64,000 nucleotides of DNA from Falciphora oryzae (lineage: Eukaryota > Ascomycota > Sordariomycetes > Magnaporthales > Magnaporthaceae): positions 176,867 to 240,866 of the forward strand of contig JNVV01000064.1 of NCBI GenBank assembly GCA_000733355.1, in the 5' to 3' direction. A program made the translations under genes and the position numbers. The notes below the pieces were generated by a model that was given only the letters and a program-made list of their open reading frames with translations, had not been told where the DNA came from and made no database searches. Shown here one piece after another: positions 25,478 through 49,467 of this stretch (its first letter is position 1; each line of letters begins with the position of its first letter).

Positions 25478-25512
25478 TAAAAAAGTTATTAAAAACTCCA
25501 CAACTTACCCGA

Positions 25513-26073: not shown

Positions 26074-26551
26074 TCTGTCAAAAGCAAAAAAATGGGAGAT
26101 AGCAAAGAAAAAAAGTACTTACCACTAACAAAAGGAAAGGATAGCAGATATGGCCAAAGGGACTTGGCTTAAAAAAAGGGACCTAATATTACAACTATAC
26201 AAATAGCGGGGATAGGAGGCCTAGGTCAAACCCCGGGAAGGAAGCACCCTCAACCCCGCATTTGGAAAAGGAAAGGTTACGTAGAAAAACACGTAACCTC
26301 AAAGTGATATATCTAATATGCGACATAGCAAACATAGCACAGGACCTTAAAGTAATATGTCTAATATGTAACATAGCAGATATAGCACAAGTCCTTAAAG
26401 TAATATATCTAATATACGACATAAATAACAAAGTATAATTAAAAAAAAACGCTGGTTGGACCTTTGCAAACGCGCATCCGGTCAGCCCTTCGAAATAATC
26501 CAAATCTGACTTCAGAACCGGAATCCACGCATCCGACTCCCCCCCGAGCCG

Positions 26552-28250
26552 ATGCCGCAAGCGGCGCACGCCGGCGGCGCGGGGTTGGAATCGATAAAAA
26601 TCGATTCTGGCCTCGCGGCTAGCCGACACGCATTCGCGAACGACCCGCCCGACGCGCCTCAAAGCGCGTCGGGAAGCAGGACCTCCCCCGACCCGGAACC
26701 GCATCGCAACCGCCAAAAAACTAACCTATTAGAAATCAAAAACAAACTAAAGCCCCTTATAATTCGTAGCAAGCTGCCGGAAATCCTGCAACTAATCAAA
26801 AAGCTAATTAACACCGAAACCGAAGCGGTAGCGGCGCGCCAACGCGACGCAGCCAAAAACGGACCGATTACGACAAAAACCCTCGAAACATTTAAAATCG
26901 ACATTTTTACCGAAATAAAAAACGCCCTCGCCGGTAACAGCAAAAAGTCCTACGCCGCCGCAACGTCCCACGGGCTAGCGCCCGGGGGACGGAACGCACC
27001 CGAACCGAACCCCCTCCGACAAAACACCTTCCACCCCCCACCCCGATTCATCCCGGCCAAATTGGAGCGAAAAGTTACGATCGCCGTAGGAAAAATGCCC
27101 CCTCCGCTAAAGGGTAGATCATACGAAAAGATACTACAAACGGTCCGGACCCACATCGGGGACGGACCGAAGGGCATACGCACCCTACCAAACGGTAACG
27201 TAGTGGTTACATTTACGAACAGCGCGGAGGAATACAAAAAAAGGACGGCGTAAATTAAAGCCGTATTCGGGGACCAAGCCCAGCTTCGGGAACGAACCGT
27301 AAACGTAGTGATTCGAGGCTTCAAAATGGGAACTTTCCTTACGGACCCGGAAAAACTAACGACAGCCCTAAACGCCGAAAATAAAAACGCGAACATACGG
27401 TCGGTTTACGTCTAGCCCCCGAAAAACAACATAAAATACGCGATCGTACTAGCCAAAATCGGGAACGCGTCAGCAACGGACCTATGCTGCATATAAGGAG
27501 TTGCACACCGGGCGGAAATCTACAACTGCGAACCATACGCTTTAAAGTCGAAAGCAACCCAATGCTTCAACTGCTACTAATGGGGATACAAACAAAAGTT
27601 CTGCTATAAACCGAGCCGGTGCCTTTACTACGCCGGGCCGAAGCACCAAAAAAGCGAAACGGAATGCGCGGCGCACCCCAAACAAGCGGCGGAAAGGCCG
27701 AAGTGCGTAAACTGCGACGGACCGCACCCGGCGTTCCGCCGGAGCTGCGGCACCGCGCAACAAGCAATTAAGAAAGCTAGGGAGGCGTACAAGAACAGGC
27801 CGAAAAGGTTCGCCTTGGAAACCGGAGGGTTTAGGGCCAGCTAAACAACGAACATCCCGCTATTCCAAAACCGCATAATAGCCGGCATCGGAGCGGGAAC
27901 GAGCCCTAACAAAAGACAAAAAACAAACGGAAAAAAAAAGACAACACCGACGCCAACAGGAAAACGACCGGTGGGGAAACCCCCGGGATCGACATTACTA
28001 AAGGGCCGGACACTTACCAGGCCGCCACCGGCGGCGGGCGCCCGGTATCAGCAAACCATAATAAAAACGGGGGTTAAAAATAGCTCCCCGTTATCGAAGC
28101 CCCTAATAACTACGGACGAACAAATATAAGCGGCCACGGCAAAACAAATGAACTTCCCCCCCTCCTTATCCGAACCGACCCCGACCATGACGAGCGCAGT
28201 CACCTTTGGAAGCCAGCAACGAGCCGCCGAATCCATATGGTAATTTCTAT
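26552..28250 (+). pseudogene. LINE ORF1 (gag-like, zinc-knuckle RNA-binding protein)
   Basis: Opens at 26552 and reads through as one frame with TAA/TAG interruptions. Around 27560-27760 are the consecutive zinc knuckles characteristic of Tad-type ORF1: QCFNCY.WGYKQKFC, SRCLYYAGPKH and PKCVNCDGPHPAFRRSC. Some cysteines are already lost. Confidence 0.8.
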
Positions 28251-31200
28251 ACTATATTAAAACATAGGGAAGGGTAGCAGCCGGGGAAATACCCCCTTTT
28301 TCAATAAAAAACAGTACGACATAATCGCTATCCAGGAACCGGAGCTGGATAGGCACGGAGACTTTAAAAAGCCAGCAGGCTGCCAATACGAAATAGTATA
28401 CTACCAAACGAACACAAAGTCCAACGCGGCGTTATACGTACATTAAAAACTCGACCCCGTTTCGTGGTCGAGCTGAAGCGGATATAACTAGGCAGCAATT
28501 ACATTATAATTACCAGTCGGAAATATAAACATTTATTCGATATATTCACTAAACCCCAAAACCCCAGGAGTATGGAACATACCACTTTAAAAAATCACCA
28601 CGTACCTACCCCGGTAGCACGCCGTACTAGTGGGGGATTTTAACCTCCACTACCCAATATAGGATATATACAACAAAAAAAACGAAAAAACCGAAACACT
28701 TCTAACGCTAGCGAAACGGTGGAGCTTTAAATTCGCCACGCTATACGGCGAAGTTACAAAAAAACGAAAAGGGGAAAAGGAAAACACGATAAACCACGCC
28801 TGGGTTTTAAACTCGTTAGTCGTTTATTACGAAGGAAGAAACCCAAAGATAGGAAGGTCTAACCACCACCCACAAGTAATTAGGATCGAGATAGGGCAGG
28901 AACCGCTCCGGCAACGCCAAACCGAAAGCTGGGTATGGAAAGAGGTCGATACCGACCTAAAAAACGATAAAAAAAAGGCCTTATACCTCGCGGAACAATT
29001 TATCCAAACAAGCGATATCACTATAAAGGAGGAACTAAATAAAGCCGTTAACGCGCTAATAAAACAGCTTACTAAAGTCGCAAACGAACTGGCACCGAAG
29101 CGCAAGGCGGCAACCAAGTTTAAACCAGCACCTTATTGGATAACTAAACTGACGACATTGTTAAAGGAAACGAAACGGTGCTAGCGCGAATACACCCGGG
29201 ATAAGACACAAACAAGCTACGACAAATTAAAGGAAGTAGACAAGGCCTTTATTAAGGAAAAAAGGAAGGCCGCAAACGCACATTAGAAAGGGTTTATTAA
29301 GGACATATCAAAAAATCGTGAAGCTACGTTTTGAAACGTCGAAAAGTGGGCAAAACTAAAAAGCCACCGCAGGCGAGACCCCACCAGGCTACCGGACCTG
29401 GCCCGCCCCGGGCTAGGACTGGGGGAAGCAAATACATACGAAGAAAAAGCGAGTATCTTAACGACCAAATTCTACCCCAACCCCCCTGCAAACCTTTCCG
29501 ATATCGAAAATACATCGTTCGAAGACGAGACGTTCGAAAACGCTTTCGAAATAGACAACAGCGTGGACGAGGACGGTAGCGCGGTGCACCAGGTCCTGTC
29601 CCGGGTTAGGAACTGGAAAGCCCCAAAGCCTAACAACCTACCGAATGGATTACTAAAAGCGTACGGCGAACCTTGCTGGCAGGCATTATCAAAGCTGGCA
29701 AACGCCAGCTTCGAATTCAAATATTTCCCAAAGCGGTTCCGGGAAGCACTTACGGTTATAATCCCTAAGCCCGAAAAAACAATTACGGAAAGGAAAACGG
29801 CAAGGGGCTGGAAACCGATAGCACTCCTGTTTTCGATTTCGAAAGTTTTTAAAGCTATTATAGGATAAAACATCGCTACCGAGGCGGAAGCGAAAGGACT
29901 CCTACCCGATAGCCAGATGGGAAACAGAGCCAACCGGAACATAGAACTAGCAATCCGATAAATTACGGAGTCGGTGATTATAGCGTGGAACTATGGCGTT
30001 ACCGCATCGTTACTGCAGCTGGACCTCTTAAGCGCCTTTAACAGCGTAAACCACGTGAGGCTTTTAGATATATTAAAAAAACAGGGGTTCCTACTAAAGA
30101 TAGTGAAATGGATTAAAAGCTGGCTTACAGGGAGGACGGCACGTTTCCGGTTCGATGGAGATACGTTAGCAACAATCCCAGTCCATGCGGGAGTACTTTA
30201 AAGGTCGCCCCTATCACCCATTTTATTTATCCTTTACATCGCGTTATTATATAAAGAGCTGGAAACGATACCGGGAATTACGGTCGTTGGCTTCGCTAAC
30301 GACACAAACCTTTTGGCCACAGCCGGAACCACGGCGGAAACGTGCCACCTCCTTACACGCGCGTAGGAAGTATGCCAAAAATAGGCAGCCAAAACAGGAA
30401 TATCTTTTAACGCAGCAAAGACGGAGCTAATCCATTTCTCCAAAACGCCAAACCCGTCCCGGGTTCGGCTAAGTGACAACGAGGTTGCACCAAACGAATC
30501 TGCAAAATTCCTAAAGGTTTAGCTCGACCGAAAATTAAACTTCCAGGCACATTTGGAAAAGGCTAAAAGCAAATAGGAACGACAATAGCTAGCTTTAACC
30601 AAACTCGCGGCGGCAACGTAAAAGAGCAGCCTCGCTAAAGCAAAACAACTATACGCGGTGGTATACCGCAACGCGCTGGCGTATGGAACAACGGCGTTCC
30701 ACCTACCAACGGAAATTAAAGGACGGCCCCAAAGCGTTATTAAAAAGCTTGCGAAAGAACAGCGGGCCTATTTAAGGGTAGTAGCGGGGGCATACCGAAC
30801 GACATCCCTAGCGCATTTAAAAACAAAAACCTACACCCCACCCTTGGATTTATACCTAAACGAAAAGGTGCTTAATACTAAAAAAAGATAAAAAGATACT
30901 AGGATAACGGAAATAGTAAACAAAGCTACCGAAAAAATAGCGGAATGGCTCCGACTTAATAGGTTTAGGCAATTTAAAAAAAAACCGCACCCACACAGCG
31001 GGATTGCGAAAAAAAAATGGGCAACAAAATGGGACAGGAACGATATAAAACCGGAACTACGCCGGCGCGAGCTAAGCTCCGAAAACAACTGGAAGCTACG
31101 TAATAAATACAAAAGGCATTGGAACCCAAACGTTACCTTTAAATGGAAACTTAAAGCGAAATGCGCGGCTGAAACCGCTAGGAGGGCGAACCGACACCGG

Positions 31201-31480
31201 GGCACCTGCCCCGCTAACGACGCCCAATTTACGGAGGAAGTCCTAAAGTATTACGAAAAGCTGCCAAAAACCCACAGCTCCCTGGCAATCCAAATTCGCA
31301 TAAAAAAATTAGGATTGAATGCTTTCCTTTTTAGCAGAAATGTACCCGACGCGGTAACGCCCCTATGCGAATGCGGGAGCGGGTAGAAAGAAATAGCATA
31401 GTACGTGTTAACATAATGTGCCAAATGGGATTAGGCGCGGACCGGTACCGGCTTGGATTTGGTTTTAAACCGAAAAGCAT
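28250..31480 (+). pseudogene. LINE ORF2 (endonuclease and reverse transcriptase)
   Basis: The RT is clear from about 29560: LSRVRNWKAPKPNNLPNGLL, FREALTVIIPKPEK, GWKPIALLFSISKVFKAII, QLDLLSAFNSVNH. The catalytic FADD box reads FAND (30291-30302), a GAC-to-AAC change matching RIP. A C-terminal Cys-containing segment (CECGSG) is near 31370. The upstream endonuclease part is recognisable only weakly because of frame breaks and stops. Confidence 0.83.
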
Positions 31481-31499
31481 ATTTCGAAATGTGGGAAAA

Positions 31500-33880
31500 A
31501 AGCGAAAAAATATACGCGATCGTATTAAAAATAATATTTCGTATAAAGAGATTATTAGATTTTAAGGCAGCGAAAAAGTTAAAGCGTATCGAAAAGGAGA
31601 AAAAAACGGCAACGCGATAAACAAAACGCTATTAAGCCGGACTAAAACACCTACCGGAAGCCGTATAAAAAAAAACGCCGAACGAAAGCACCAAAAAAAA
31701 GGATAAAAAAAAAAATAAAACCAGGATAGGGACCGAACCGCACCAGAAACGAAGCTATCACTTATCGTCGTTATCATTACCCTCGTTATCCATATCCCGA
31801 AACATTTCATTAGCAACCTTTTCCTAGGCATCCCGAAGGTATTTATCAAAGGTATCGGGGACTTTCAACTTTTTATCGAGCATTTCGAACTAGCAAAGGA
31901 AAAACGGTTAGCGGGCCGGAACAAAAACGGAAAAGAAGCGAAACGAAGGGACGTACGCGGAACTTGGCACGCTCCAAAGCCAACTTCTCCATTTTCAAAC
32001 GATTAAACTAATCCCATTGGGAAACCAAAGCGGAAACCCAGCCAAAAAAAGCCTAAGCTGGAGGAACCATATTGCCGGACGGGAACCGGACCAAAGCAAA
32101 GCTACCACCGGCAACGGAGGAAAAGACATTGCCTAAGCCGATAAGAAACGGAGAGGGACGGGAAAAACCCGAACCAAAAGGGATACCGGAACGTTTGCCA
32201 AAATCCTTCGCAACGCGCAAGTAGGCGGCGATAGCGTTAACTAAAACGCTGTAAACTTTTTATTACAAACAAACAACTAGGGTTAGCTAAAGAAACGCCG
32301 GAATTAGGGCGGAACAAAGGCGGGACAAACCCGAGCACAAATCTCCTTAGCGGGAGACGCGACGTCGAAGGCAGCTTTATCTTTAGGCAGGATAAAGATA
32401 TATTTGGTATGCGCTTTAAGCACATAGGCGACGGCTTTTTCGGTTCCGACGGGAGGTTACCGGGTCGTAAGCGAAACGGAATCGGGAAAAGAAAGGAATG
32501 GAGGAGGAAAACTTACCTGCTAGTAGAAGCCGCGAAAAACGCTGTAAAAAGCGCAGGTTAAACCCTTAGTGTTTACGAAAAGAAGGTCAGCACCAAATAG
32601 GGAACGGAGCGGAAGAGGGACGCATTCGACCGGTAGCTGCAGGCCCGGATGGCGCCGGTACTTTCGGTGCCGTTCGCTAAGCGCTAAAAGCAACCAACAT
32701 AAATGGTAACCTTGGGATTAAAAGAAAAGTCAGCAAAACGACGGGGAAAAGAGCCGGAAAAGGAGCGGCAACGTACGACTTTAGCTGCAAATATAAGACG
32801 TAACCTAAAGGAACCTTTAAAGCGGCGCTATATTCTACCTGATGGTAGAGGCGATACGGCTACAAAATAACGGAGTCAGCGAAAAGAGCGCAAACGTGAG
32901 TGAAGCGGGAGAGGAACGCTTACGGCTTTAAAGCGAGGATTGACGGATTCGGGGACCTCGTCGCCGCCGTCGTTCTAACGCGGAGAAATAGGCGCGGCAA
33001 ACATAGTGGAGGAGCCGAAAGAAAAAACCGAAGCAAAGGAGATACCGGCAAGGTAAAGGTACGATCGCGTGCAAGAAAGCAGTGGCAGGTGTGGTAGTGG
33101 TGGTGGTAATAAGGGTGAAAAAGGAAGGAAGGGAAAGAAAAAAACCTGGAGGAAAGAAGCCTATTTGTAAGCAGGGAAAGCGGGGCGGCACCGGGCCGCA
33201 GGAGGAAGGTGGAAAAAAGGTAACAGATCCGGAAGGCACGACTAATACCGTCGATGACATAGCGAGAAGCCACACCGGGCCCGAAACCTACGAGGACAAA
33301 AACGATGGCGTAACATAAGGCAAACCACAAAGCCGGAACCGACCCGCAACTACGGAGGAGATTTCCCGAGGTGGAGCTAAAAGCACCGTCCAGGAACCGG
33401 CCACCTCGGCCGAAGAAGGTGATTTACCCCAAATTACAAACACAACAAACACACCGGGAAGCAAAAGCGGGCCGCCAGCGGCCCGGTTACTTCGGGGCAA
33501 CAGCTGTCAACCAATAAAGGGACAGCCCCAATAGCGCCGCCTCGCCCGGAGGAAAGGGCGAGGCGGTAACGCCCCGGCCGCGGCACGATTTCCTTGCGTC
33601 ACCACATCACAATCACCCTTTTCCTTAAATCTACCTTTTTCCTTAAGTCACCCACAATCACAAAGACGCTTTCGCGTAAAGACCCTTAAAAAGCAGGCGT
33701 GGGAAGAAAAGCAAACGGCAGCATTGTTTAACACAGGAAGCACCGTATACGAAGAGCAGACATGGTTTTTCCGCCCAGGAGGCGGGCCGCTAGCGACCCG
33801 CCGCCAAGGGTTTTTACATGTACACTAGAAGAGGGACCGAGGTCTAATTAGACAGAACGGAGTATAACTAAATAAATAAT
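31500..33880 (+). other. LINE 3' region with GC-rich hairpins
   Basis: About 2.3 kb without a supported gene, ending at the LINE 3' terminus. From about 32,900 the sequence is markedly less AT-rich. It contains strong hairpins: a perfect 11-bp stem CCGCCTCGCCC/GGGCGAGGCGG near 33538-33568, and GC-rich inverted repeats near 33469-33485 and 33780-33803. Short reading frames here show no domain. Confidence 0.45.
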
Positions 33881-35462
33881 AATATACGACATAGCAAACA
33901 TAACACAAATTGGGAAAAACCAGGTCGTATATATAAAGGAAAAGTTCTTCCACGGTTAAATAGCTTTAACTAAGGCATCGGCATTAGTCAACCTAAATTA
34001 GCTCCAAAGTACCCCCTTAGGCAAGCATTTTAAACTTCTATCACCAATTTCCCGGTTTCCCTGAAACAACCCCTATCAAATGTACTATTCAGCACCCTCT
34101 TTAGGTGTCCTACCCTAGGAGCAAAGCCTGATTGTAACAAAGGAATCCAACTCGATTTCCTATCGATCCGCACCTTTAATCGCGCTGTTTACTCCCTTAA
34201 ATAAAATGCTCGACGATGCAAAGTTAAACGCCCGCAACCTTTTTGGAAATCATTTATCCACCATACGGTTAGCAAGAACGATAGCCCCGGCGGCGACCTC
34301 GACTACCCGGAAAACGACTACTAATACAATACGTACAGCGCTAAAAGAAAAGAAGCAATTTAATCCGCTAATTCGGTTATATCACGAACTTACCGCGAAA
34401 TGGTTATGTACGTTACCGAAAAAAACCTGCAACAACTTCCGCAATACCTACGCGCCTTTTTTATACTTCGTTAAGCGCGTTAGCCGAAAAAAAGTTCATT
34501 ACCTTTTTAGCCCAACACAGATTTAGCAATAGGCGGCAGCGATCCAAGCTAAAACTGCATTACTTAAACAGCTTTTTACTAATATCCGGGAAGGTTTTCG
34601 GAAAAAGCAGGCCGAGGTATATAAAAAAGCTTTTACTAATCCAAAAACGGCTATAAACTATCACCGGCCTTTCGGCGGTAGTAATAAACAAAAGATCAGG
34701 CTTATTTATAACAACGTTATTAACATCAACAACGACGGCATAACTAAGCCGTTAAGCGAGTTAACCTCGCTAATTTCTAGCCTAATACGACGAAATCCTC
34801 CCGCAAACGTGCAAACAACGTTAGCGCCGGCACCGTTGCATTAAAGCATCGCAAAAAACGTTAATATATCTCGGAACCTGCAACAAACCGTTTTTAGAAC
34901 CTCGTCGGCGCCAACGCTCGTCGCGCCGGCCAACTACAAAATAAACGAAATCGCTTTACCCTTTTAATCACTTTTAAGTAAATTGCCAGATCCTTTACTA
35001 CCTTCCTGCGGGCAAATCGCGATTTTACCGTCGCATTACGGCACCAAATCTGCTTAAAAAAATCAATACCCTTTTCCTTTTCATCTATCATTTAACGTAA
35101 TAATCCCGCCCAATATTTTTACGGTAAAGCTATTTAATTCATTTGCAAACGAATTTGCGCGCATTTACGCTAGCGGGTCGCTTTAGCAATATCGAAAAAT
35201 CCAAAAAACCGCTCAACGCCTTTCGAAACACCTCTCTAACGGATTATTAAGCATTTAAAGTATCCGGGAAATGCCCAACGCATATTTCCTAGCCCTCGGC
35301 CTGCCGGCTAATTTCGTGCGGGCGTTTAAATCGTCGTTTAAAAAGCGCGTTAAAAACGAAGCCTTCCGCCTCGCCCTTAAAGCTAACGGCGACGGCGACG
35401 TAAACGAGGCCGTGCTAGGAGGAGGTTTAAGCCCTCAATTATTTTAATATCTAAACGGAATG

Positions 35463-35762
35463 TGTTGGATTGCACTGGCCTGTGCAGGCAATCGGCAGAG
35501 GCCAGAGAGAGTCGGATCCTCTGGTCCCGTGATCTCTGATCACGGGATCCGAGGACCCGCAAGCCCGCGGAGGTTGGGAGCAGGGGAAGGCCCCTTTGGT
35601 GATCTGGATCGTGTATATATAGCCTCCCTTCTGCTCCCTCTCTGGCAGATAGATTCCTTTCCTCTTCGTGCACAAGAATAGAATGATCCTCTGATATAAA
35701 GGATCATTGTTCACCTTCTTTGGAGATCTCCGAGCCCAACAGGAGTACCACTCCTACCAACA
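35463..35762 (+). repeat. Solo LTR 2, little or no RIP, inserted in the accessory ORF of the outer transposon
   Basis: 300 bp from TGTTGGATTG to CTACCAACA, flanked by GAATG on both sides (35458-35462 and 35763-35767). It contains a TATA-like GTATATATAG near 35611-35620 and a palindrome (TCCCGTGATC TCT GATCACGGGA, about 35524-35546). Base composition is normal and CpA/TpG sites are kept. The strand is inferred from the TATA-like box only. Confidence 0.9.
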
Positions 35763-36039
35763 GAATGCTTATTTACGATTAATTTTCCCCGCAAATCCTT
35801 TTACTCAACGCGATCCTATCTAAAATCCCTTCATAAATGCCAACAACCTCGATAGCTTCCCTCTGCCACCATTTCCCACAACGCGACAAACGATACCCTT
35901 TTTAAGCTAAAATCCTACCGACGACGATAGCTATAGCGACGAGGGCTCGATCCGGTAACAAAATAAAAAGCCCGGGCGAAATATATATAAAAAAGGTTTT
36001 TAACGATCGCTTAAAGGTCGGCACGTTAATTTACTTTAA

Positions 36040-36324
36040 TGTCACACGGAAGAACCTGTGGACTCACCCAATCGGCCCCACAGAAGGTCCGGGAACCGGT
36101 ATAGGTGCCCAACGGCCCTGAGGCCCAAAGGCCGAAGGCCGGAATGGCAGTGTAAATCATATACTTAATACTTCGCACGGATCACAGGGTGGTTTATATA
36201 AACCCTGCCATCTCCTATGTCCTCCATGAAAGATTCCTTTTTCCTTAAGCATCTTTTGAGCCCATAGAAAGATTATCTGCAATATAGAGATCCTTTTCCA
36301 AGCCGTTTTTAACCCCTTGTTACA
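36040..36324 (+). repeat. Gypsy-B 5' LTR
   Basis: 285 bp, TGTCACACGG..TTGTTACA, near-identical to 43026-43310 and, inverted, to 41400-41684. A TATA-like TTTATATAAA occurs near 36191-36200. Confidence 0.95.
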
Positions 36325-36589
36325 AATAATCTTTCTCACGCTCTGCCCCCTAACGGAAGCCTTACTATCTTTCCTCCTAAGCTCTGGAAAGGCCCTGTTA
36401 ATCGGTACCCCTAAACCCTAACTGTTGCCTTCTTTAGCGAATAAAACCCTGGGGCCACACCATAAACATTTTAACTATTACCGGTGTTTTTAAACGGGTA
36501 AAAGCGAAAAGAATATATAAAAGGGTCGTTTCACCTTCTTAATCGCCCTGGCGAAATCACGGGACTCCAAAAAAGGCCGGAAGATTTCC

Positions 36590-39020
36590 CTTATACGTTT
36601 GGGATTTTACGTTGCTTAGGAATACAGGGAACCGGACCCCCTCATCTCGTTTGCAACGACATCTCTTTCCTTACTAAGCGACTTTGGCATGCCGGCCGTG
36701 GAATTAACGGAATCCCCTTCTCTGCCCAGCGATTCCGGTATGCCTGCCGATACGATGCCGGCCCAATCTGGAAAAGCGGCCGGAAAAGCCCCCGAAAGCC
36801 CCTCCCGGTCTATACCGGAAGAACGTTAAAATACCTTTATGTTTGACGATTAGGGGGCACTTATCCTGTATTCGGCACCCTTTTTTAGCATAGCCTTTGA
36901 ATAACAAGCCCTTACATCCGTGGGACGCTTTTAAAACCCCCCGGGCTGGATGACCGAAATCTAACGGGAATTTATTAGTACGTACGAAGCAATTTCGGCC
37001 CTATCCCGAAATGTGAGCTAGGAAATCCTCGCCGATCGGGAACAAATCCGCGAAATAAGGACCCATTACGACCATATCACCCACGCGTACAATACCGTCG
37101 TCTTTTTATATAAAAAAGGTTTAATCGCTTCCGCCGACTAATAAAAGGCATTCCGGCAACGGATTATCGGAAAAAGCTAGGCATTCGCATAACAAGTTTG
37201 GGCTACGGTTGCCACTTTGGCCGAAAAGCAACAGACCCGTTCGGAGGCCCTAGTTCAGCTCCGGAATGTTACTTGGGCTTAACAAAACCACTTGCAAAAC
37301 CTACAAGCACGGCTTTCCACTTTCGAAAAGGGAGTTACTAACTGGGCCGTTAATAAGGATGCCTAAATTTAAAATCTCCTAACCAAAGAGCATGTTTCGC
37401 CCGAGGCTTTCACCGAAGCCAAGCGACGCATATTAGCCCAAACTCGCTAGCTTGTTAAGGACGCCGTACGGGAAAGCCGGCGGTTTGCAGCATAAAGAAA
37501 GCGGCCTAAATCGGCTATTGTATTTTCGGCCCTGTAACGATCGTTTTAACAACCCGGATCAAACCGAAGCTCTCCCTAGGACGTACCCGTCCTTATTAGG
37601 GAAGATAGGGCCGAAGTTAATACCGATATACTTCCGCCTTCCGCTTTTAAATAAACAAGTTCGATGGCGCGGGAACGGATCGTTAAATTAAACGCCGGCT
37701 TGCTGGCCGCACAAATGGAAAGGACCTTAAAGGATTTACAAACCCGAGCAAATTAAACCCGCATAAGCATTACGCCGGGACGGACACAAAAACAACCCGC
37801 CGGTAATCCGGACTTTTCGGACTTTTCGGAATCGGATGATAGCGATAATAACCTGCCACCGAAACCTCTTAACTAAAAGCCACGGCTGTTCCGATCACCT
37901 TTTCCGCCAAACGATAGGGCTTCGTAACCCCTTAGGGGAACTCCCTAAAGCACGGTCTTTATAGTCAACCCCGTGCAATTTAAAACCCCTAGCGCTTTCG
38001 AAAGGGATCGCACCAAATTTAAAAACTAGTGGTTCGTAGTACAGGTTTATATAAACGCTTGCCCCTAAAGCTTTACGGGTAACCCGCACCGCATCATTTA
38101 AGTTAGGTCCCTTTTAAAAAAAGCCGCTTTTTAATAGCACGTAGCTAGGGCACGTTTATTAAAATTTATAAACGTTTAAAATTCCTGGAAAGGATACGCT
38201 TTGTTGCTGGAGGAGCATTATAAGGACTTTAACGAAAAACGAACTGATGCTAAAAAGCTCCGGTTTTTAAAGTATAACGGCGATATCGTCAGCTACCTAA
38301 CGGAGTTGGGGCAATACAATATCATTACCCGATAAACCGGTATGACCTTCCGGGATTTCGTCCGATCCTCGCTACTCGAAGGTATCGCCGATTTGGTATA
38401 TGCCAATAAAGGTCGAATTTTTACGGACGACGCCGAATTCCTCGAAGCCTTCCAAAAGGCAGGGATTACTTACGAGCAAAAGCTCGCGGATAGAGCTTTT
38501 ATTAAAGCTTTGATGCAAGGAACGGGCTAAAAGGAAAAGGGAAAAGACGAGCCCGTTTCGAATTAGGAGCGCTTGAGCGCGGGCCGTCGCCGGGGCAAGG
38601 GCTCTAAAGACAGGAACCCAAATCCATCCTCAAGCTCCCGTTCCGGAAAGAAGGCTAACGATAAAAAGGCCGCCGATAAAAAGAACAACATTTGGATTAC
38701 TACCAAATTAGCATTTAAAGGAATCGAATAACGCGATATCGACGCAAGAAAGTTGGCTAAAGCCGATTGCTGGCGTTGCGGAAGAAAAGGGCATTATACG
38801 TTAGAATGCTACGCCAAAAAGGACATTAACGGCAAGGAACTCCCTCCTACACCAGCAAAAACGGCCGGTGCCAAATCCATCCTTAAACGCCTTGTAACGG
38901 ACGAATAGGAGGAACAGCCACAGGCTAAAAGGGCTAAAATCGCTGGCTTCACTTTAGAAGCCCCGAGCGAACCACGAATCTTTAAACTATCAGATTCGGA
39001 ATCGGACGATGATTGTTAAT
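36590..39020 (+). pseudogene. Gypsy-B gag remnant
   Basis: A long frame with scattered TAA/TAG codons. It has a capsid-like helical segment (LEEHYKDFNEKRTDAKKL, about 38200-38260) and a single CCHC zinc knuckle, CWRCGRKGHYTLEC, near 38770-38812. The C terminus is acidic (SDSESDDDC). Confidence 0.82.
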
Positions 39021-39094
39021 AACTATCGATTATCGCCGCTAACCGGTCCCGAAGGCCCTTAACGGATAGGGAACTCGCAAAGCTAATCCTTCGC

Positions 39095-42000
39095 ATGTAT
39101 ATACGGGCGAGGGGATCGAAGGAGATACCTGTCCGGGTCCTTTTAGACGGAGGTAGCGATACGAAGGTTATGTTAGACAAAATAGCGAAGCAACTCCCAA
39201 GTCACCTGGTTAACAAAGCTATCCCTCGCGTAATAACCTCCTTTTTAGGGAAAATCGAACCCGAAGCCGGAAAGCAACTAGTTGTTAACGTTACCCTCCG
39301 GCACAAAACGCACTATTTTACGGAAACGTTCGAAGTTAGTCCTACGGATCCAGATTGCGATATTATCCTGCCTTTCGCATGGCAAAGGCAACACCTACCG
39401 CTGGGGTTACTGGATCGCGACCTTCGGGATATCCGGATGGATTCGGACAAATGCCGGAAGTGCAACAAGCCCCGGGCCCAAAAGCTACAGGATTTACGGC
39501 CGCCCAAAGGCTTACGCCTTCGGGAGAACATAAAAACAGTCGAGCCCGCGATTATTGCCGCTATTAAATACGGGCACGGTATTCCTTCCTTTAAGGAAGT
39601 GACTAAAGCGGATTCGGACGGCCTCGAATCGGTACTACAAAAGTTTAGGGAATTTCTCCCTATTATGACGGAAGCGGCTGCCACCCGTTTTCCCGATCAT
39701 CAGCCCTGGGACCACGAAATTCACTTTAAAGAAGGAGCTTAATTAACCTATGGCCTTTTGTACCTAATGAGCTAAAGGGAATTGGATGTTTTAAAGCCGT
39801 AGCTGGAAAAGCAAGTACGAATCGGTCGGGCCAGGCCATGCAAAACTGCTAACAGTTCGCCCTTTATGTTCGCAAAAAAGAAAAACCCCCTCGATCTTTT
39901 AAGGGTGGTGGTCGACTACAAGGACGTAAACGTTAAAACAATTCCGATTCGGTGCCTTATCCCGCTTATTACGGAGCTTTAAAATCGACTTCGGAATGCC
40001 AAATGGAAAACGAAAATCGATTTTAAAACCGGGTTTAACCTGATTCGGATAAAGAAAGGGCACGAATGGTTTACGGCCTTCCGTTGCAAATACGGCGTTT
40101 TCGAGTTTACGGTTATGCCAATGGGCCTTATTAACGCCCCCGCTACCTTCCAAAGCATAATGAACCATATCTTTATAAACTTTATCGATGCCGGGCTCCT
40201 CGTATATTTGGATGACCTTTTAATATACGTAGAGATTAAGGAATAACACGATAGTTTGGTAAAGGAGGTGCTTCGCCGCCTTACTAAACACAACCTGGCC
40301 GTAGCCCCTCGCAAATGCGTTTAAGGGGTGCACGAGGTCGAGTTCCTTGGTCACATAATAGGACCCGAGGGCATCGCTATGTCTAAAGATAAGGTTGATG
40401 CTATTATCCAATGGAAGGCCCCCAACTGCTTTAAAGACTCCCAATCGTTCGTCGGCTTTGCCAACTTTTATAAAAGGTTTATTAAGGGGTTTTTAGGAAT
40501 CGTTAAGCCTATAACGACGGCCAACGCCTTGCTTAAAAGCTAATAGCGATGGACCCCCGAAATGGAACAGGCCTTCGAAGCCTTTAAAGTCGCTTTCGTT
40601 TCGCCTCCGATACTCCGGCATTTCGACCCATCTTTTCCAGCACAAGTTGAAATGGACGCTTTAAACTTTGCCTTTGGAGGGGTGTTATCCTAAAGGGACC
40701 CCGAAACCAATAAACTGCACCCCGTTGCCTTCCATTTACGCAAAATGTCGCCCGCCGAAATCAACTATAAAATCTACGATAAGGAACTTTTGGCGGTCGT
40801 TGACTGTTTCGTTAGGTGGAGGCATTACTTCGAAGGGGCAAAGCACCGGATAGAAATTTATACGGATTACCGGAACCTCGAATATTTCCTAACGGCCAAA
40901 ATCTTTAATCGAAGGCAAACTAAATGGGCATAATAGCTGGCTAGTTATTGGTTTATAATTAACTACCAGCTAGGAAAGCAAAATGAAAAGGCCGATGTGC
41001 TATTGAGATTACCCCAGCACAAGCCTAAAAAAGGGGGGAGTGAGGATCAGCCAATTACGACGATCCTGCAAAAAAAAACACTTCCCAGCAAGAATTTCGG
41101 CCCTGGAAGGACAAGGAGATAACCCTATAAAAGAAGCTTTGCCGCAAAAAGCACCTTCTTTCCTCCTGTCCCCAGGCCGGCTTTGCAGTATTCCAATTTT
41201 AAAGTGGGCTACGGAATTTACTGACAAAGTTAAGCAAGCTGGTATATCGGATCCCGAATACCAAAGCCGCCTCCAGAAGCCCGAAAAGGGTGAAGAAGTC
41301 GAGGATGGCCTCCTTTATTATAAGGAAAGATTGTGGGTGCTAACGGAAGCCCTGCAAAAGGAAGTCCTCAAGTCCGAACATGACACAAAAGTCGCTGGAT
41401 GTAACAAGGGGTTAAAAACGGCTTGGAGAAGGATTTTTATATTGCAGATAATCTTTTTATGGGCTCAAGAGATGCTTGAGGAAAAAGGAATCTTTCATGG
41501 AGGATATAGGAGATGGCAGGGTTTATATAAACCACCTTGTGATCCGTGCGAAGTATTGAGTATATGATTCACACTGCCCCTCCGGCTTTCGGCCTTTGGG
41601 CCTCGGGGCCGTTGGGCACTTATACCGGTTCCCGGACCTTTTATAGAGCCGATTAGGTGAGTCCACAGGTTCTTCCGTATGACACTGGACATATGGGTAT
41701 GGATAAAACCCTCGAGTTAATTACTCGGCACTTTTAGTGGCCCAACATCGAGGCAAAAGTCCGGGAATACGTGAGGGGATGCCTGGAGTGCTAACGCAAT
41801 AAGGCCCTAAGGCATGCCCCCTTTGGACCCCTACAACCCATAGAGCTGCATTACCAGCCCTGGAAAACGGTGGCTATGGACTTCATCACGGACCTCCCCT
41901 TAAGCGATGGGTGCGATTCAATCTAGGTAATGGTAAACCCCTTTACCAAGATGGCGCATTTCGTCCCCTTTAAAGTCGAAGGTAAGAAATCGGATAACTT

Positions 42001-42960
42001 TATCCGCATTTTCGCTAAAGAATACTAGCGATTGCACGGTGTGCCTCTGGATATTATCTCTGATAGAGATTCCAGATTTACGAGCCATTTGTGGAAAGAT
42101 TTCCTCCGTTTGGTAGGCATTAAGCCAAAAATGAGCACTGCCTTCCATCCCCAAACGGATGGACAAACCGAAAAGCTTAACCAAAGCCTGGAAGCCTACC
42201 TTAGGTCTTTCGTAAATTACGAAATGATTAACTGGGTCGAGCTATTACCTACGGCGGAATTTGCTTATAATAATATATTTTCGGCAAATACCTCCATTAC
42301 TTCCTTTTTCGCCAACTACGGGTACCACCCAGCTTCCAATAATCCCCCTCTCCTAAGACGAGTACGCAATCCAGCAAGCCAACTCTACCAGCATTAGATA
42401 ACCCAGGTGCACGAAAAAGCCAAACAACACCTAAAAAAAGCCCGGGAACGAATAAAGCATTGGGCCGACAAAAGGAAAAGCCCCTCGCCGGTCCTTACCG
42501 AAAGATAGTTCGTTATATTAAACGCCCGGCACATAAAAACCCGTCGCCCTGCCAAAAAACTCGATGCCAAAATGCTCGGGCCCTTCCGGATCCTTAAAGT
42601 TATTTCTCCCACGGCGGTACGACTGGCCCTGCCTAAAACCTGGAAAATCCATAACGCTTTCCACGTGTCCCTTATCGAACCCTACCGCTCTAGCATTCAA
42701 GCAAAACCTGACCCTGACCAGGTATTGCGGGAGGCCCCTTCGGTTATAGGAGATTTCGTTATAAAAAAGGTTATGGATTTTATGGATACAGGCGGGAAAG
42801 TTCGTTACCTTATCCGATAGGAAGATTACCTACGAAAAAAGGACTGGACGTGGGAACCTTGGGAGCACTTCGATACCGACGGATCTAAGCAACACGTTAT
42901 TACCTTTCATCAGCTCAACCCCGATAAGCCTAGGGACCCCCGCGTGCCACAAGATATAAG
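39095..42960 (+). pseudogene. Gypsy-B pol: protease, RT, RNase H, integrase, chromodomain-like end
   Basis: Protease-like region near 39140 (VLLDGGSDTKVML, where the usual catalytic Asp-Ser/Thr-Gly reads DGG). RT starts near 39905 with catalytic YLDD at about 40204-40215 (LLVYLDDLLIYV). RNase H is at about 40640-40930 ([27 protein letters not shown]). The integrase is split by an inverted solo LTR at 41400-41684 and continues with HMGMDKT, AMDFITDLP, ISDRDSRFTS and FHPQTDGQTEK. A chromodomain-like tail (WTWEPWEHFD) is near 42850. Several TAG/TAA codons interrupt it. Confidence 0.9.
41400..41684 (-). repeat. Inverted solo LTR of the Gypsy-B family inside the Gypsy-B integrase
   Basis: 285 bp, the reverse complement of the Gypsy-B LTR, flanked by CTGGA on both sides (41395-41399 and 41685-41689). 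It is therefore a separate insertion of a family member, later reduced by LTR-LTR recombination. Confidence 0.95.
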
Positions 42961-43025
42961 CATAGCCGCATCCCTTAAGCGGGCTTCAAAAGGTCTCGAA
43001 ACGCGCCCTAGGAAAAGGAGGATAG

Positions 43026-43310
43026 TGTCACACGGAAGAACTTGTGGACTCACCCAATCGGCCCCACAAAAGGTCCGGGAACCGGTATAGGTGCCCAACG
43101 GCCCTGAGGCCCAAAGGCCGAAGGCCGGAATGGCAGTGTGAATCATATACTTAATACTTCGCACGGATCACAGGGTGGTTTATATAAACCCTGCCATCTC
43201 CTATGTCCTCCATGAAAGATTCCTTCTTCCTCAAGCATCTCTTGAGCCTATAGAAAGATTATCTGCAATATAAAGATCCTTCTCCAAGCCGTCTTTGATC
43301 CTTTGTTACA
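43026..43310 (+). repeat. Gypsy-B 3' LTR
   Basis: 285 bp, aligned end to end with 36040-36324. Followed by the second TTTAA target copy. Confidence 0.95.
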
Positions 43311-43399
43311 TTTAATATACCGCTAAAAAATTCAGCATATTCTTTTTAATACAATTTTATATAATCAATTGCAACGCCTTTTTCCTAGCCGTTTCTTTA

Positions 43400-44441
43400 T
43401 AGCATTTTCGCCTATTTAAAATGCCTTTTAATCGCCTTTATACAAAATTTTCGAACGGTCGCGATATCCAATAGGAATTACTTAAACTCGTCCTTCGACA
43501 TCTTTTCGCTTTTTTCGTATTTCCCGCAACGTTTAACAGCCGTTTTTAGGTCCTTAAAAAAAGCTTCGATCGGGTTGTAATTTGGTAAATAGGGTGGTAA
43601 AAACAGCAGCAAAACGCCAGCTTCCCGATAAACCAACTCAACGTGAAGGTTTTTATGCCAAAACGCGTTATCTATAACTAAAATACTTTTGGGGGCAAAA
43701 AATCTATCCATACGAGGAAGTAAATCCTATTTTAGCCAAAAAAACAAACCCATTAGCGTTTGTATAGCCTTTGTATATTAATTCGCAAACGAAACCGGTA
43801 ATCGAAATCGCAAACAAAATATAAAATCGCTTCCCTTTATCGAAAAGGTGCCGTTCGTAAGGAAAAACTCCCCGCGGTGCCTAACTAATACGCTTTGCTG
43901 CATTTCGTCGATCCAGCTTAAATTTATCGCAAAAAACGAACATTTCGGCAGTAAACGCGCTAATTTTCCTTTCCCAATCAACGCGTAACTTTTTATTTCG
44001 CTAACTAGCTACGTAATATAGCTTTTTATTGGACCACCTTTGTTCCTTTAGGCGTACCGAAATCGTCGGGATCGAAACGTATACGTGCTTTTCGAGGGCC
44101 AGCCACCATTGCATTTTGTCGAGGAATAAGTAGGGTTTATCCCTAAACAGGTCCAGCAGCGACTGGCAGTCAAAATTAGCAAATACTTCCAAAAAACGAC
44201 GTCGCGGCGGAAGGCGAAAAAGCGAAAGGCGTACGAGCAATACCGCGTAAAGTAATTTAACGGCATTTCTAAAAGATCTTTTAAGTGGGAAAGGGTTGCC
44301 AGTAATTTTATATTTGCGCTAATAATTATAAACCCGTCGTTTATTAAAGTCGAGCGCCGCCGCTATACGTTTAGCCGGTACGCAAAGCTCGAGCAGGATG
44401 CATACGCTGTTCTTTTGCTGGATCGATAAATGTGGCGCCAT
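43400..44441 (-). pseudogene. Tc1/mariner-type transposase of the outer element, RIP-inactivated
   Basis: Starts at ATG 44441 (MAPHLSIQQKNSVCILLE), with an N-terminal helix-turn-helix-like part followed by DKMQWWLALEKHVYVS and RLKEQRWSNKKLYY, the usual linker to the catalytic domain. A middle segment contains WIDEMQQSVLVRHRG. The DDE_3 end is at about 43710-43560: SILVIDNAFWHKNLHVELV, then LFLPPYLPNYNPIEAFFKDL, including the second Asp and the final catalytic Glu. Frame breaks and stops prevent expression. It lies just inside the right TIR, so it belongs to the outer element. Confidence 0.82.
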
Positions 44442-45792: not shown

Positions 45793-48700
45793 ATGCAGCG
45801 GGCGGCAGCTGAGAGAAGCGCGCGATGGCTGCTGTTCAGCGACCTCCACTTCAAGCACAAGGACCTGGACCGCGTTCGGCTCACGGCGCAATGGATCGTG
45901 GCGCAGGCCGAGCAGCACCGCGTGCGGCGCGCCGTTGTCTGCGGCGACCTGCTGACGAGCCGGACGATGCAGCCGACGCACGTGCTGTCGGCGTGCTACC
46001 GCTTCATCAGCGACCTCAGCGACGTCGTGCCGCACATCAACATCGTGCTCGGCAACCACGACCTGGCCTACAAGCGCGACTACCGCACGACCGCCCTCGA
46101 TGCGCTCGGCATGCGGCGGCTGTCTCCCTTTGTGTCTCTGCACAGTGATATCGAACGTGATGTCTGGGATGACCGTCGCGTGCTGCTTTTGCCCTTCCGT
46201 GAGGAGCAGGAGGAGCTTACTGCTGCGGTGGACGCGCTGGATCCGGCTGAGGCGAGGGAGACGGTGGCCTTTGCCCATCTGGCCATCCACAAGGCCATCC
46301 TCCAGCGACACGTTGTGGGAACCACGAACGAGGGGACGCCCCGTCCCCCTGTCAGGTACCGGGGCCTGACTGGCCCAGGCCGCTTCGCCTCGCTTGCGCG
46401 GACTTTTACGGGGCACTTCCACAGCCACCAGGTCCTGCGCCAAAAGCAGCAGGAGGACAGCGCTGCCAGCACGGATCCTCTGCATGGCAGCCTCATGTAC
46501 ATCGGCTCACCGGTGCAGATGAACTGGGCTGACTTGAACGACGAGCAGCGAGGCGTCGTTCTGTTTGACCCCAGCACGCTCGCATGCGAGATACTCGTCA
46601 ACCCACATGGCACAGTTTACACTACCGTCGACGTCAAGGACGTCCTTGATGGAACGGCCGACGCGGCAGCCGTAGCGGAGAAGCACGTCATGCTCCTCGG
46701 CGAGCTGACCCGCTTCAAATATGCCACGGCACGCGACCAGCTTCTGTCCCTTGGCGTGCGGAGTGTGCGAAGCTGGAACCCTATGAGCCCCGTCATCCAG
46801 GCCCACCATCAAGCCTCTGGGGGGTTCGGCGCGTCCGTACCAGCGGGCGATGCTGCCGTCCAAGGACTAGAACAGCCAGCTCAAGGCTTGAAGGCAGGAG
46901 ACACAAAGAGTAACGTCTCGGTGCTACCACAGACGGAGATAGGACAAGCCTCACGTCGGCTTGATCTTGGTGCTGAAGCGCATGATTACATCGAGTCTCT
47001 GTCGCTGGATCCATCCCTCGTGCCGAGGCGAAAGGAGTTGATCCAATCCGGACAGCGTGTCATCCAAGCCTCCAGTAAATTTACAGATGAAGATATCGAA
47101 GTGGGAGTAGATTATCACGACTTTCTGGGCGGCAAGTCGAAGGCTCCCAGCTTGCCGGACTCGGCTGCGCTGGCAAGACCTTCCACCGATGTCTTTGTTG
47201 CAGAGCCCCAATCCCTGATCATCAGGAATTTCCTTGGTGTGCAAGGAGTTCTTACCATTGACTTTAAGCGAGATTTGCCGCGCGGGCTAGTCTTCCTGGT
47301 GGGCGACAATGGCTCTGGCAAAAGCACCATCGTTGAGGCCATGGTCTGGTGTCAGTTTGGGCGGTGCATCCGCAGTGGGCTGGGAGCCAACGACGTTGTC
47401 AACGACGCGGTGGGCAAGGACTGCTCTGTCAGCCTGACGTTTTCCAACGGCTACACCATCTCACGGTACCGCAAAGACAAGACATACAAAAACAGAGTTA
47501 TCATATCACTACACGGCGAGCCCCAGACGCAGATGGAGCACCCCGATGCGCGCACAACGCAAGCAGCCATCGACGAGCTGCTCGGCATCGACTGCGATAC
47601 GTATGTGCGGTCTGTTGCGTTGGGTCACGAGAGTGCAGCAAGCTTCCTGAACTCGACACCAACGCAGCGACGAGACGTCATCGAACAATCTTTGGGGCTG
47701 TCCACGTTGGCCCGATGCGCACAAATGTCGAGGCTTATCCTCAAAGAGTTTGACCGGCAGATGGGCGATATTCAGACCAAACTTGTCGGCGTCACCAATA
47801 TCACGGACTCCAGCGAGAGGGAACTGCGGGATTTGGAGCGGTCACGAAAGAAGGTCACCTTGGAGGCTGAAAGGGTGGCTGAGGCCCTGGGTGTTGCGAT
47901 TCAGCGACACAGGCTGGCACAGGAGGCTGATGAAGAGCTTCCAACCTTGGCTCAATCCCTTGCAGACGTGGACGGTCGAGTCGCTGTCGCCAGCCAGAAT
48001 GTGCAGCAGCTGTTTAAGGAGTCCAATTCAGCCGAGCTTTGCATCGCCTTCCATACCGAACTTTCTTGCTCTCTATCCCGCCTTCGGTCGGAACAACAAC
48101 GCTTGGAGCAGCTTCAGGCCCTATATAATCGCCTGTCCAGCCAAAAAGCAGCCAGACCAATACCGTGGTGGGACCGAGCGCAACAGCGCTGCTTGCAGAA
48201 ACTCGAAGTTTTGTCGACGACGCGGCTGGTTGGCTTGCCAAAAATCGTCTCCTCGGGAACAACCTTCTTACTCCGCCTCCAGCTGTCCGCCCTGCAAGTT
48301 TGGGCCCGTATTGTTGGATTTTTTCATGGTGATAAAAGTCAGGATCTCGAAGCAGCCATGGTCGCTGTCAGCTTGGATGTTAAACATATTGTAAGCCGCG
48401 TTTCCCAATTCCAGTCTGACGCCGAGGTGGCTGCCGTGGTCGAGAAAGTGGCGGCTGGCCGTGGCACGGACAGGAAGGATGTGGAGGGGGCAGTATCGGC
48501 GGTACCGTTGGAAACTGCCAGAACAATAAACGAGCGACTTGACCGGGCCATTAAGGAGCATGAGAAGCTGCGGCGTCAGCGAGAGGCACTGCTTGTTCAG
48601 GCCAGGGAGCAGGAGCATGAGAAGCTGCGGCGTCAGCGAGAGGCACTACTTGTTCAGGCCAGGGAGCAGGAGCATCTGCAACAAAAGCTGGCAGCCAAAA

Positions 48701-49467
48701 AGGGGGAAGCGGTAATCTACCAAAAACTCGCCGAGGGGAAACGGGCGAGTATCGGCTCGCTTCAGGCGCGGCACAAAGAGTTTGACGCGGAGCTTGAGCA
48801 ACTGGCTGCCACACGTGAGCTTTTTGCCTTCTGGGCTTCGGCATTTGCGAAGCGCACGCGCCGAATCTCGACAGCCGAGTCGACCAAAGCCATCACTACC
48901 TTCCGCGAGTACGTACTCAACCAGTCGCTTGCCGAACTGAACGCGCTCCTGCCGCAGGTCCTGACGGTTCTGTACGACGACACGCGCCACACGAGGGCCA
49001 TGACGACGGGCATCCTACGCGGCTTGTTCGACAGCGACGGCAGCGGACCTCTGGACGCGGTAGACATAGTGACACCCATGCTCGACAACACCCTCGCCGT
49101 CCACCCGTCCCTCGCGTACGGCAAGCGGTCCAGCGGCGAGCGCAAGCGCATTGACCTCGCCGTGTTCTTTGCGCTGCTCCAGGTGCGCCATGCGCGCAGC
49201 TCCCACCGCGCCCATTATGTGCTGGTCGACGAGGTTTTCGACAGCCTTGACGAGGCCGGCCAGGCGGCAGTCGTGCGCTGGTGCGCCTTTGCCGCCCGCC
49301 GCGTTGCCGGCTGGATCGTGGTTATCACGCACTCACGTGTCCTCATTGACCAAGCCGACCGATATCACAAAGAGGCGGATGATGGCTACGACCTGGGCTC
49401 AATTGTCACAATCCGTGCGGACATGAAGGAAAATGGCATGCAATTGTACTTTAACAACAGGGAATGA
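45793..49467 (+). CDS. Single-chain SbcD/Mre11-like nuclease fused to SbcC/Rad50-like ATPase
   Basis: An intronless frame of 1224 aa from ATG 45793; the frame extends upstream only from a TTG. The N-terminal half is a calcineurin-type metallophosphoesterase with the SbcD/Mre11 signature set: DLH at 17-19, GD at 51-52, GNHD at 87-90, a His near 162 and GHFHSH at 207-212. A linker of about 190 residues follows. The C-terminal half is an SMC/SbcC-type ABC ATPase: Walker A GDNGSGKST (504-512), long helical arms (about 650-1010), signature SSGERKR (1113-1119), Walker B LVDE (Asp1146, Glu1147), D-loop and H-loop His1180. No CxxC zinc-hook motif is seen between the arms. SbcD and SbcC, Mre11 and Rad50, and phage gp47 and gp46 are normally separate proteins. 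The expected role is ATP-gated processing of DNA ends. It converges with the next gene, with only 24 bp between stop codons. Confidence 0.9.
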   Translation: MQRAAAERSARWLLFSDLHFKHKDLDRVRLTAQWIVAQAEQHRVRRAVVCGDLLTSRTMQPTHVLSACYRFISDLSDVVPHINIVLGNHDLAYKRDYRTTALDALGMRRLSPFVSLHSDIERDVWDDRRVLLLPFREEQEELTAAVDALDPAEARETVAFAHLAIHKAILQRHVVGTTNEGTPRPPVRYRGLTGPGRFASLARTFTGHFHSHQVLRQKQQEDSAASTDPLHGSLMYIGSPVQMNWADLNDEQRGVVLFDPSTLACEILVNPHGTVYTTVDVKDVLDGTADAAAVAEKHVMLLGELTRFKYATARDQLLSLGVRSVRSWNPMSPVIQAHHQASGGFGASVPAGDAAVQGLEQPAQGLKAGDTKSNVSVLPQTEIGQASRRLDLGAEAHDYIESLSLDPSLVPRRKELIQSGQRVIQASSKFTDEDIEVGVDYHDFLGGKSKAPSLPDSAALARPSTDVFVAEPQSLIIRNFLGVQGVLTIDFKRDLPRGLVFLVGDNGSGKSTIVEAMVWCQFGRCIRSGLGANDVVNDAVGKDCSVSLTFSNGYTISRYRKDKTYKNRVIISLHGEPQTQMEHPDARTTQAAIDELLGIDCDTYVRSVALGHESAASFLNSTPTQRRDVIEQSLGLSTLARCAQMSRLILKEFDRQMGDIQTKLVGVTNITDSSERELRDLERSRKKVTLEAERVAEALGVAIQRHRLAQEADEELPTLAQSLADVDGRVAVASQNVQQLFKESNSAELCIAFHTELSCSLSRLRSEQQRLEQLQALYNRLSSQKAARPIPWWDRAQQRCLQKLEVLSTTRLVGLPKIVSSGTTFLLRLQLSALQVWARIVGFFHGDKSQDLEAAMVAVSLDVKHIVSRVSQFQSDAEVAAVVEKVAAGRGTDRKDVEGAVSAVPLETARTINERLDRAIKEHEKLRRQREALLVQAREQEHEKLRRQREALLVQAREQEHLQQKLAAKKGEAVIYQKLAEGKRASIGSLQARHKEFDAELEQLAATRELFAFWASAFAKRTRRISTAESTKAITTFREYVLNQSLAELNALLPQVLTVLYDDTRHTRAMTTGILRGLFDSDGSGPLDAVDIVTPMLDNTLAVHPSLAYGKRSSGERKRIDLAVFFALLQVRHARSSHRAHYVLVDEVFDSLDEAGQAAVVRWCAFAARRVAGWIVVITHSRVLIDQADRYHKEADDGYDLGSIVTIRADMKENGMQLYFNNRE
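48556..48669 (+). repeat. 57-bp in-frame tandem duplication in the SbcC-like coiled coil
   Basis: Two adjacent 57-bp copies (48556-48612 and 48613-48669) differ at one silent position. Each encodes EHEKLRRQREALLVQAREQ (residues 922-940 and 941-959). The duplication lengthens the helical arm by 19 residues without breaking the frame. Confidence 0.95.

Follow-up and report, generated by a model that had tools for sequence, protein, structure and literature searches.

Can a fungus encode, in one polypeptide, both activities of the DNA-end nuclease whose parts, Mre11 and Rad50, are normally made as two partner proteins? The question was raised by a 64,000-nucleotide stretch of Falciphora oryzae DNA (GenBank assembly GCA_000733355.1, contig JNVV01000064.1, positions 176,867 to 240,866), here called the window, in which a sequence-only reading had recognised an SbcD/Mre11 nuclease fused to an SbcC/Rad50 ATPase at 45793..49467 of the forward strand. 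The analyses described below show that this gene specifies a complete SbcD/Mre11-type nuclease and a complete SbcC/Rad50-type ATPase on one chain. They make it probable that the protein works as a homodimeric, ATP-controlled nuclease of DNA ends and hairpins, and that the gene descends from a phage-type founder, has spread horizontally and serves in accessory end or hairpin processing.

A single open frame encodes a nuclease and an ATPase

The one-chain SbcDC gene (1,224 amino acids) was found to be a single frame of 1,224 codons, uninterrupted from the ATG at 45793 to the stop at 49465-49467, which bears out its description as intronless. The ATG at 45793 was supported as the true start because P0001, the closest relative among the best 120 of 206 protein database matches, opens with the same N-terminal residues (MQRAAAERSARWLLF) as the window protein. 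The motifs of the nuclease, followed by those of the SMC/SbcC ATPase, were all located in this one frame where the sequence-only reading had placed them. Profile searches matched phrog_100 (SbcD) to residues 11-300 (E 2e-24), and phrog_77 (SbcC) and the Pfam family AAA_23 to the window protein (E 2.2e-52 and 2.6e-17, respectively); because of these scores and the 206 protein matches, a chance origin of the motifs was excluded. An assembly artefact was likewise rejected, given the 206 matching proteins and the presence of both halves on one chain in the best 120 of them. One copy of the fused gene was found when the genome (50.18 Mb, 123 contigs) was scanned. Canonical Mre11 and canonical Rad50, the latter with a CSLC motif, are encoded apart from it on contigs 75 and 2 of the same genome.

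The SbcD/Mre11-type metallophosphoesterase occupies residues 9-245 (45817..46527; this and the following domains are on the forward strand, with limits in the window protein set by the analyst). Its motifs are DLH (17-19), GD (51-52), GNHD (87-90), H162 and GHFHSH (207-212), and all eight catalytic residues (D17, H19, D52, N88, H89, H162, H208 and H210) are present. The final D of the GDxxD motif is replaced by T; Mimivirus R555 also departs from the motif at this position, with H (PMC3175470). A capping domain, residues about 246-335 (46528..46797), lies inside the structural match to 7dog_A, an SbcD nuclease with its capping domain, which aligned with model residues 9-329. In the predicted models two further helices, residues 392-402 and 410-428 (46966..47076), sit where Mre11/SbcD has its Rad50-binding helix-loop-helix, with low-confidence linkers on either side. 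Alignments of 3tho_B and 6s6v_A extended to model residues 430 and 428, with a poor root-mean-square deviation of 12-13 A. The predicted hairpin has a mean identity of 54% among relatives, against 41% and 40% in the adjoining linkers. Residues 392-428 are a predicted Rad50-binding helical hairpin. Mitochondrial import was considered and rejected: nine relatives begin no more than about 20 residues before the nuclease, which would leave scant room for a usual presequence.

The ATPase begins with an N-lobe, residues 467-640 (47191..47712), containing the Walker A motif GDNGSGKST at 504-512 (47302-47328). Coiled-coil arms and an apex follow at residues 641-1000 (47713..48792), as judged from the structure model of a relative, P0016, and from CxxC scans. 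The C-lobe, residues 1001-1200 (48793..49392), was assigned from a Pfam SMC_N match and from conservation, and contains the signature SSGE at 1113-1116 (49129-49140), Walker B VLVDE at 1143-1147 (49219-49233), the D-loop SLD and the H-loop residue H1180 (49330-49332). VIA-align structure matches of the full model fell mostly within residues 465-1131.

The absence of a CxxC hook, suspected from the start, was confirmed by a scan of the window protein, whose 12 cysteines form no CxxC. The motif occurs in 4 of the 120 relatives at residue 946-947, which by eye is the base of the descending arm, away from the apex. The apex, approximately residues 736-870, bears a hydrophobic helical stretch. A transmembrane apex was rejected, as the stretch near 825-844 averages 1.21, below the usual membrane-helix rule. 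The descending coil includes an in-frame tandem duplication of 57 bp, or 19 amino acids (48554..48667, forward strand). By eye, a longer run of units resembling this repeat is seen in Gaeumannomyces P0002. Coil length in the family may vary by repeat expansion.

A conserved family in the Sordariomycetes

Both halves were on one chain in 120/120 of the best matches, and the organisms named among them were all Sordariomycetes; orders and class were assigned from names, and the eight species that were looked up all agreed. The nearest relatives were from Gaeumannomyces, which a taxonomy look-up placed in the Magnaporthaceae, and Magnaporthiopsis, at 75 to 66% identity. P0001 and P0002, both named Gaeumannomyces tritici, were only 60% identical to each other and are either paralogues or strain differences. 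One family member beyond the best 120, P0128, stands in a record named Lasiodiplodia mahajangana, nominally outside the Sordariomycetes, and its nearest match is Xylaria (67%); this may be a mislabelled assembly or a transfer, the two being indistinguishable. Members of the family already bear database names such as Rad50/SbcC-type AAA domain-containing protein and, in Grosmannia, gp46 recombination endonuclease subunit.

Two further searches used the N-terminal 636 residues as query, which favoured shorter proteins. The first returned 43 family members and 1 outsider, and the second, with a profile, 85 family members and 33 outsiders; the search tool requires shared five-residue words and a length window, and eukaryotic fusions longer than 1,113 amino acids could escape both. 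Scores dropped sharply from the last family member (385 bits) to P0154 (72 bits). Beyond the best 120 matches, 32 family ids were collected, and in 20 of these each half is represented by 100 or more profile positions.

Conservation of the catalytic residues was counted in 121 aligned rows. Among the rows reaching each position, D17 was kept in 111/114, H19 in 113/114, D52 in 114/114, N88 in 117/120, H89 in 120/120, H162 in 120/121, and H208 and H210 each in 118/119. In the ATPase, the Walker A lysine was kept in 121/121, the Walker B D and E in 118/118 and 117/118, and the H-loop H in 116/117. Mean identity by region (118 rows) was 72% for the nuclease and for the N-lobe, 65% for the cap and 64% for the C-lobe; it fell to 32-41% in the linkers, coil and apex, with coil and apex at 32-37%. 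Conserved catalytic parts joined by divergent linkers and coil are the pattern expected, at the level of sequence, of a working enzyme.

Phage-type affinity of the two halves

Profiles of each half, built from the fungal family only, were scored against seven comparators per half. The two profiles ranked these alike, with five phage proteins above E. coli SbcD/SbcC; the host Mre11 (5.6 bits) and the host Rad50 (15.8 bits) came at the bottom of their sets. For the trees of each half, 11 fungal rows were used, and three ATPase rows in which no Walker A was recognised were removed. The fungal rows formed one clade on a long stem in both (100/100 and 100/98). In the nuclease tree, which came with a long-branch warning, E. 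coli SbcD and the fungus's own Mre11 split with 95/98 support from the phage and fungal rows. Profile ranking and half trees together point to a phage-type or virus-type pair, or a fusion of that type, as the likely source rather than host genes. The founder would likely have been a gp47/gp46-like phage-type pair or an already fused viral gene.

No prokaryotic or viral source was recovered. A DNA scan for a prokaryotic source yielded 59 pattern matches, none of them a relative. In tblastn searches of plasmids, 893 records matched the window protein and 754 matched the one-chain protein of the Xanthomonas jumbo phage XacN1, none of them covering 80% of the query at a single place; of 1,757 phage records matching the window protein, none reached 80%. 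A motif test of viral contigs for both halves in one frame was positive at 0/80 loci. These loci had been retrieved with the family; at 79 of them the frame containing the nuclease motif was no longer than 382 codons, and at the remaining one (L085) no frame was recognised. Of the proposed acquisition from a bacterium or phage, the phage-like ancestry is favoured by the profile scores of both halves.

Likely movement between fungal orders

Trees of the family were built from the window protein and named rows of 1,000-1,400 amino acids (85/101, unnamed rows being left out), and again from 64 rows after removal of 21 Trichoderma rows. In the 64-row tree a branch with 100/100 support united 13/13 Sordariales with 15 Fusarium rows and left out 21 other Hypocreales, 5 of them Fusarium. 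Monophyly of the Hypocreales was rejected by the approximately unbiased (AU) test with both sets (p-AU 1e-37 with 64 rows and 0.015 with 85 rows). The copies of Chaetomium strumarium (Sordariales) and Fusarium solani (Hypocreales) are 85% identical over 1,142 amino acids and 90% identical in the nuclease part; identity among Fusarium copies goes down to 39%, with a within-Fusarium nuclease median of 70% (n=171). Contamination is unlikely for the C. strumarium copy because it sits on a 7.66-Mb contig.

The canonical Mre11 core of this fungus is 82% identical (252/306) to that of Chaetomium thermophilum, and the fused nuclease of the window is 63-70% identical to those of 13 Sordariales. On these sequence identities, divergence is faster in the fused gene than in canonical Mre11 for the comparison of the window with the 13 Sordariales, the only one possible. 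Because the gene tree conflicts with the species tree and Hypocreales monophyly was rejected, horizontal transfer of the fused gene from one fungal order to another, as an accessory gene, is likely. Several family gene models run on into unrelated neighbours, namely a heterokaryon incompatibility (HET) domain in P0084, a cytochrome P450 in P0007 and a glycosyl hydrolase in P0080, which suggests that the neighbourhoods differ between copies. One member, P0145 (Dactylonectria estremocensis), carries a Helitron_like_N domain at residues 706-840, after the coiled coil. Helitron capture as the vehicle was rejected, since this domain reads as an insertion into the gene.

Proposed mechanism and competing explanations

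In SbcCD and Mre11-Rad50 the heads are closed and the nuclease masked when ATP is bound, and binding of a DNA end or hairpin together with ATP hydrolysis exposes the nuclease for Mn-dependent cutting. By the same scheme, two fused chains would dimerise through their nuclease and ATPase heads to give an M2R2 layout, in which the cap and helical hairpin would couple the ATP state to nuclease access and the coiled coil would close through a non-zinc apex. Mn-dependent cleavage would follow ATP hydrolysis, and DNA ends and hairpins might be clipped much as they are by SbcCD. The cellular role is probably an accessory one, the processing of DNA ends or hairpins either during repair or in defence against foreign DNA, the two being inseparable here.

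Several observations weigh against this account. Confidence in the full-length structure model was modest (pTM, the predicted template modelling score, 0.46). D17 is altered in three rows, to N in P0001, the closest relative, and to G in P0098 and P0117, and 12/32 of the further family ids, mostly short, are without one half wholly or partly; these could represent partial gene models, fragments or copies that have decayed, and part of the family may be decaying. As to origin, the nuclease profile scored phage EalM132 (22.1 bits) barely over E. coli SbcD (20.6 bits), E. coli was the sole named bacterial yardstick in the profile scores and half trees, and the fungal stem joins no single phage group in those trees. 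As to spread, the nuclease median over 741 Sordariales-Hypocreales pairs is 74%, the pairs at 85-90% being the top of the range. The Hypocreales group was chosen for testing after the first tree had been seen, and its two tests were far apart in strength. The Sordariales as one clade were not rejected (p-AU 0.41), the Xylariales, Diaporthales and Magnaporthales each formed one clade in the 64-row tree, and some of the tree could be accounted for by a deep duplication followed by losses.

These single clades and the unrejected monophyly of the Sordariales favour a vertical history, in which the fusion was already present in the Sordariomycete ancestor and was duplicated and unevenly lost without transfer between orders. 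Such a history was nevertheless considered unlikely, since it must accommodate a Sordariales-Hypocreales pair more alike (85%; nuclease 90%) than the within-Fusarium nuclease median, a family that outpaces canonical Mre11 in divergence in the one comparison made, and the rejection of Hypocreales monophyly. Birth of the fused gene inside the fungus from duplicates of its own Mre11 and Rad50 is scarcely credible: the two host genes exist and the domain order equals the functional complex, but these proteins scored lowest among the comparators of each half, and the window protein is missing both the hook and the Mre11_DNA_bind domain. That the gene is a decaying relic with no role as an enzyme, retained by chance next to a block altered by repeat-induced point mutation (RIP), would fit the altered ligands of three relatives, the incomplete halves of the 12 further ids and the Dactylonectria copy with its Helitron-type domain after the coil. 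It is very improbable given a window frame intact over 1,224 codons and free of RIP mutation, a full set of catalytic residues, and catalytic parts conserved nearly twice as strongly as the linkers.

A different function was also weighed, that of a nuclease of genome conflict that attacks foreign DNA, as a one-chain defence or selfish element resembling Lamassu or Wadjet. Likely horizontal spread and the fast divergence of coil and linkers are in keeping with it, as is a match of the ATPase to LmuB of Lamassu (E 2.8e-16). This match lies far below that to phage SbcC (phrog_77, E 2.2e-52), so that identity with LmuB was rejected, and it spans the ATPase and coil only; there is no evident gene for a partner, and among the neighbours the nearest suggestive one is a HET frame 8 kb off. 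The explanation was judged quite doubtful. Scarcely less doubtful is a more specific version, in which a viral one-chain SbcDC was captured by the Sordariomycetes, lost its zinc hook and has since circulated between orders as a genome-conflict nuclease, either selfish or protective. If true, a captured viral SbcDC would act on invading or transposing DNA by cutting its ends and hairpins, as a fungal counterpart of bacterial SMC-type defence. An ATP-controlled nuclease of phage-type origin in accessory end or hairpin processing remains the preferred reading.

Surroundings of the gene in the window

An AT-rich block to the left of the gene (16000..44000) was presumed, from its AT content and RIP signature, to be a transposon nest. 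The RIP composite index was +0.39 to +0.64 over 16-40 kb and 0.02 at 40-44 kb; that of the fused gene was -0.77, leaving it unmarked. Eight frames from the block were compared with Pfam and matched no family; the transposon nest described alongside the gene has indirect support from the AT content and the strong RIP signature. A tRNA-Lys(CTT) call within the RIP-marked block (25406-25477, reverse strand) may be a pseudogene or belong to a repeat.

As to Starship elements, their DUF3435 captain domain gave 26 matches in the genome, none of them on contig 64; the matches are a lower bound, and contigs may be broken. A search for terminal repeats and target duplications around the gene yielded just short chance-like pairs. 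The suggested mobility is thus supported for the family by identities and trees, and no element was found at this locus.

To the right of the gene, a frame of 495 amino acids (49492-50979, reverse strand) had no Pfam match; 217 bp of it (49632-49848) have a 70% identical match on contig 49. A HET domain frame (57381-59891, reverse strand) lies approximately 8 kb to the right of the gene; in the Colletotrichum gene model P0084 the fused protein is likewise followed by a HET domain. A chitin-synthase-like frame and an acyltransferase frame are also found on this side.

Comparison with known systems

The statement that the two activities are separate proteins in bacteria, phage and eukaryotic nuclei describes the usual form and is incomplete, as fusions have been known since 2011 (PMC3175470) and one is present in phage XacN1. 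The 2011 report (Yoshida 2011, PMC3175470) describes fused Mre11/Rad50 in Mimivirus and a Bacillus phage, in five bacteria, and in a moss, a diatom, two slime moulds and two prasinophytes; no fungus is named in its accessible part. Those proteins, with Mimivirus R555 as type member, have the nuclease before the ATPase on one chain, as in the fungal family. A cap and helix-loop-helix are described for most of them; their sequences are non-canonical and near viral ones, and in nearly all cellular hosts they coexist with the canonical genes, as in this fungus (PMC3175470). Against the published description of the 2011 fusions, the fungal family stands apart as a hookless clade of its own, with no intermediate found. 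Matches of predicted structures over at least 1,200 columns suggest that several giant viruses likely encode one-chain fusions too. In the open PubMed Central (PMC) literature no fungal one-chain Mre11/Rad50 family was found, mostly from search results, and a search for Lamassu together with Mre11-Rad50 found nothing; the main text of PMC11905480, in its accessible part, does not mention rad50 or sbcc.

Closest in architecture among phages are ORF305 (open reading frame 305) of XacN1 (L101; 1998-5297), a one-chain SbcDC of 1,099 amino acids, and the related P0154 (1,129 amino acids), which at 72 bits is the top-scoring protein outside the fungal family. Unlike the fungal proteins, to which they are approximately 25% identical, both carry a CPYC hook, and the two half trees place them among phage and viral-contig rows, apart from the fungi. 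In the jumbo phages RaK2 and BF the two halves are neighbouring genes, and the XacN1 fusion is probably independent.

Phage T4 gp47/gp46 and their relatives have, of the comparators scored, the best hidden Markov model affinity to both fungal halves and a like gene order, but are two proteins. So is E. coli SbcCD, which was among the best-matching solved structures for both halves, with sequence affinity below that of the phage proteins compared. Eukaryotic Mre11-Rad50-Nbs1 has an equal pair of activities and the lowest sequence affinity among the comparators; its zinc hook and Mre11_DNA_bind domain are both missing from the window protein. Indeed, Mre11_DNA_bind (PF04152) was absent from the 9 Pfam matches of the window protein (E up to 0.1), and its sole match in the genome is the separate Mre11 gene on contig 75.

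The one-chain Mre11/Rad50 is therefore of a known kind, to which this locus adds a large hookless Sordariomycete family, phage-type halves and probable movement between orders, extending the 2011 list to the fungi. A natural single-chain Mre11-Rad50, hookless and of fixed 1:1 stoichiometry, offers a clean system for ATP gating of the nuclease. If the spread across orders is true, a DNA-repair engine of the SbcCD and Mre11-Rad50 kind would also be a horizontally moving accessory gene in eukaryotes.

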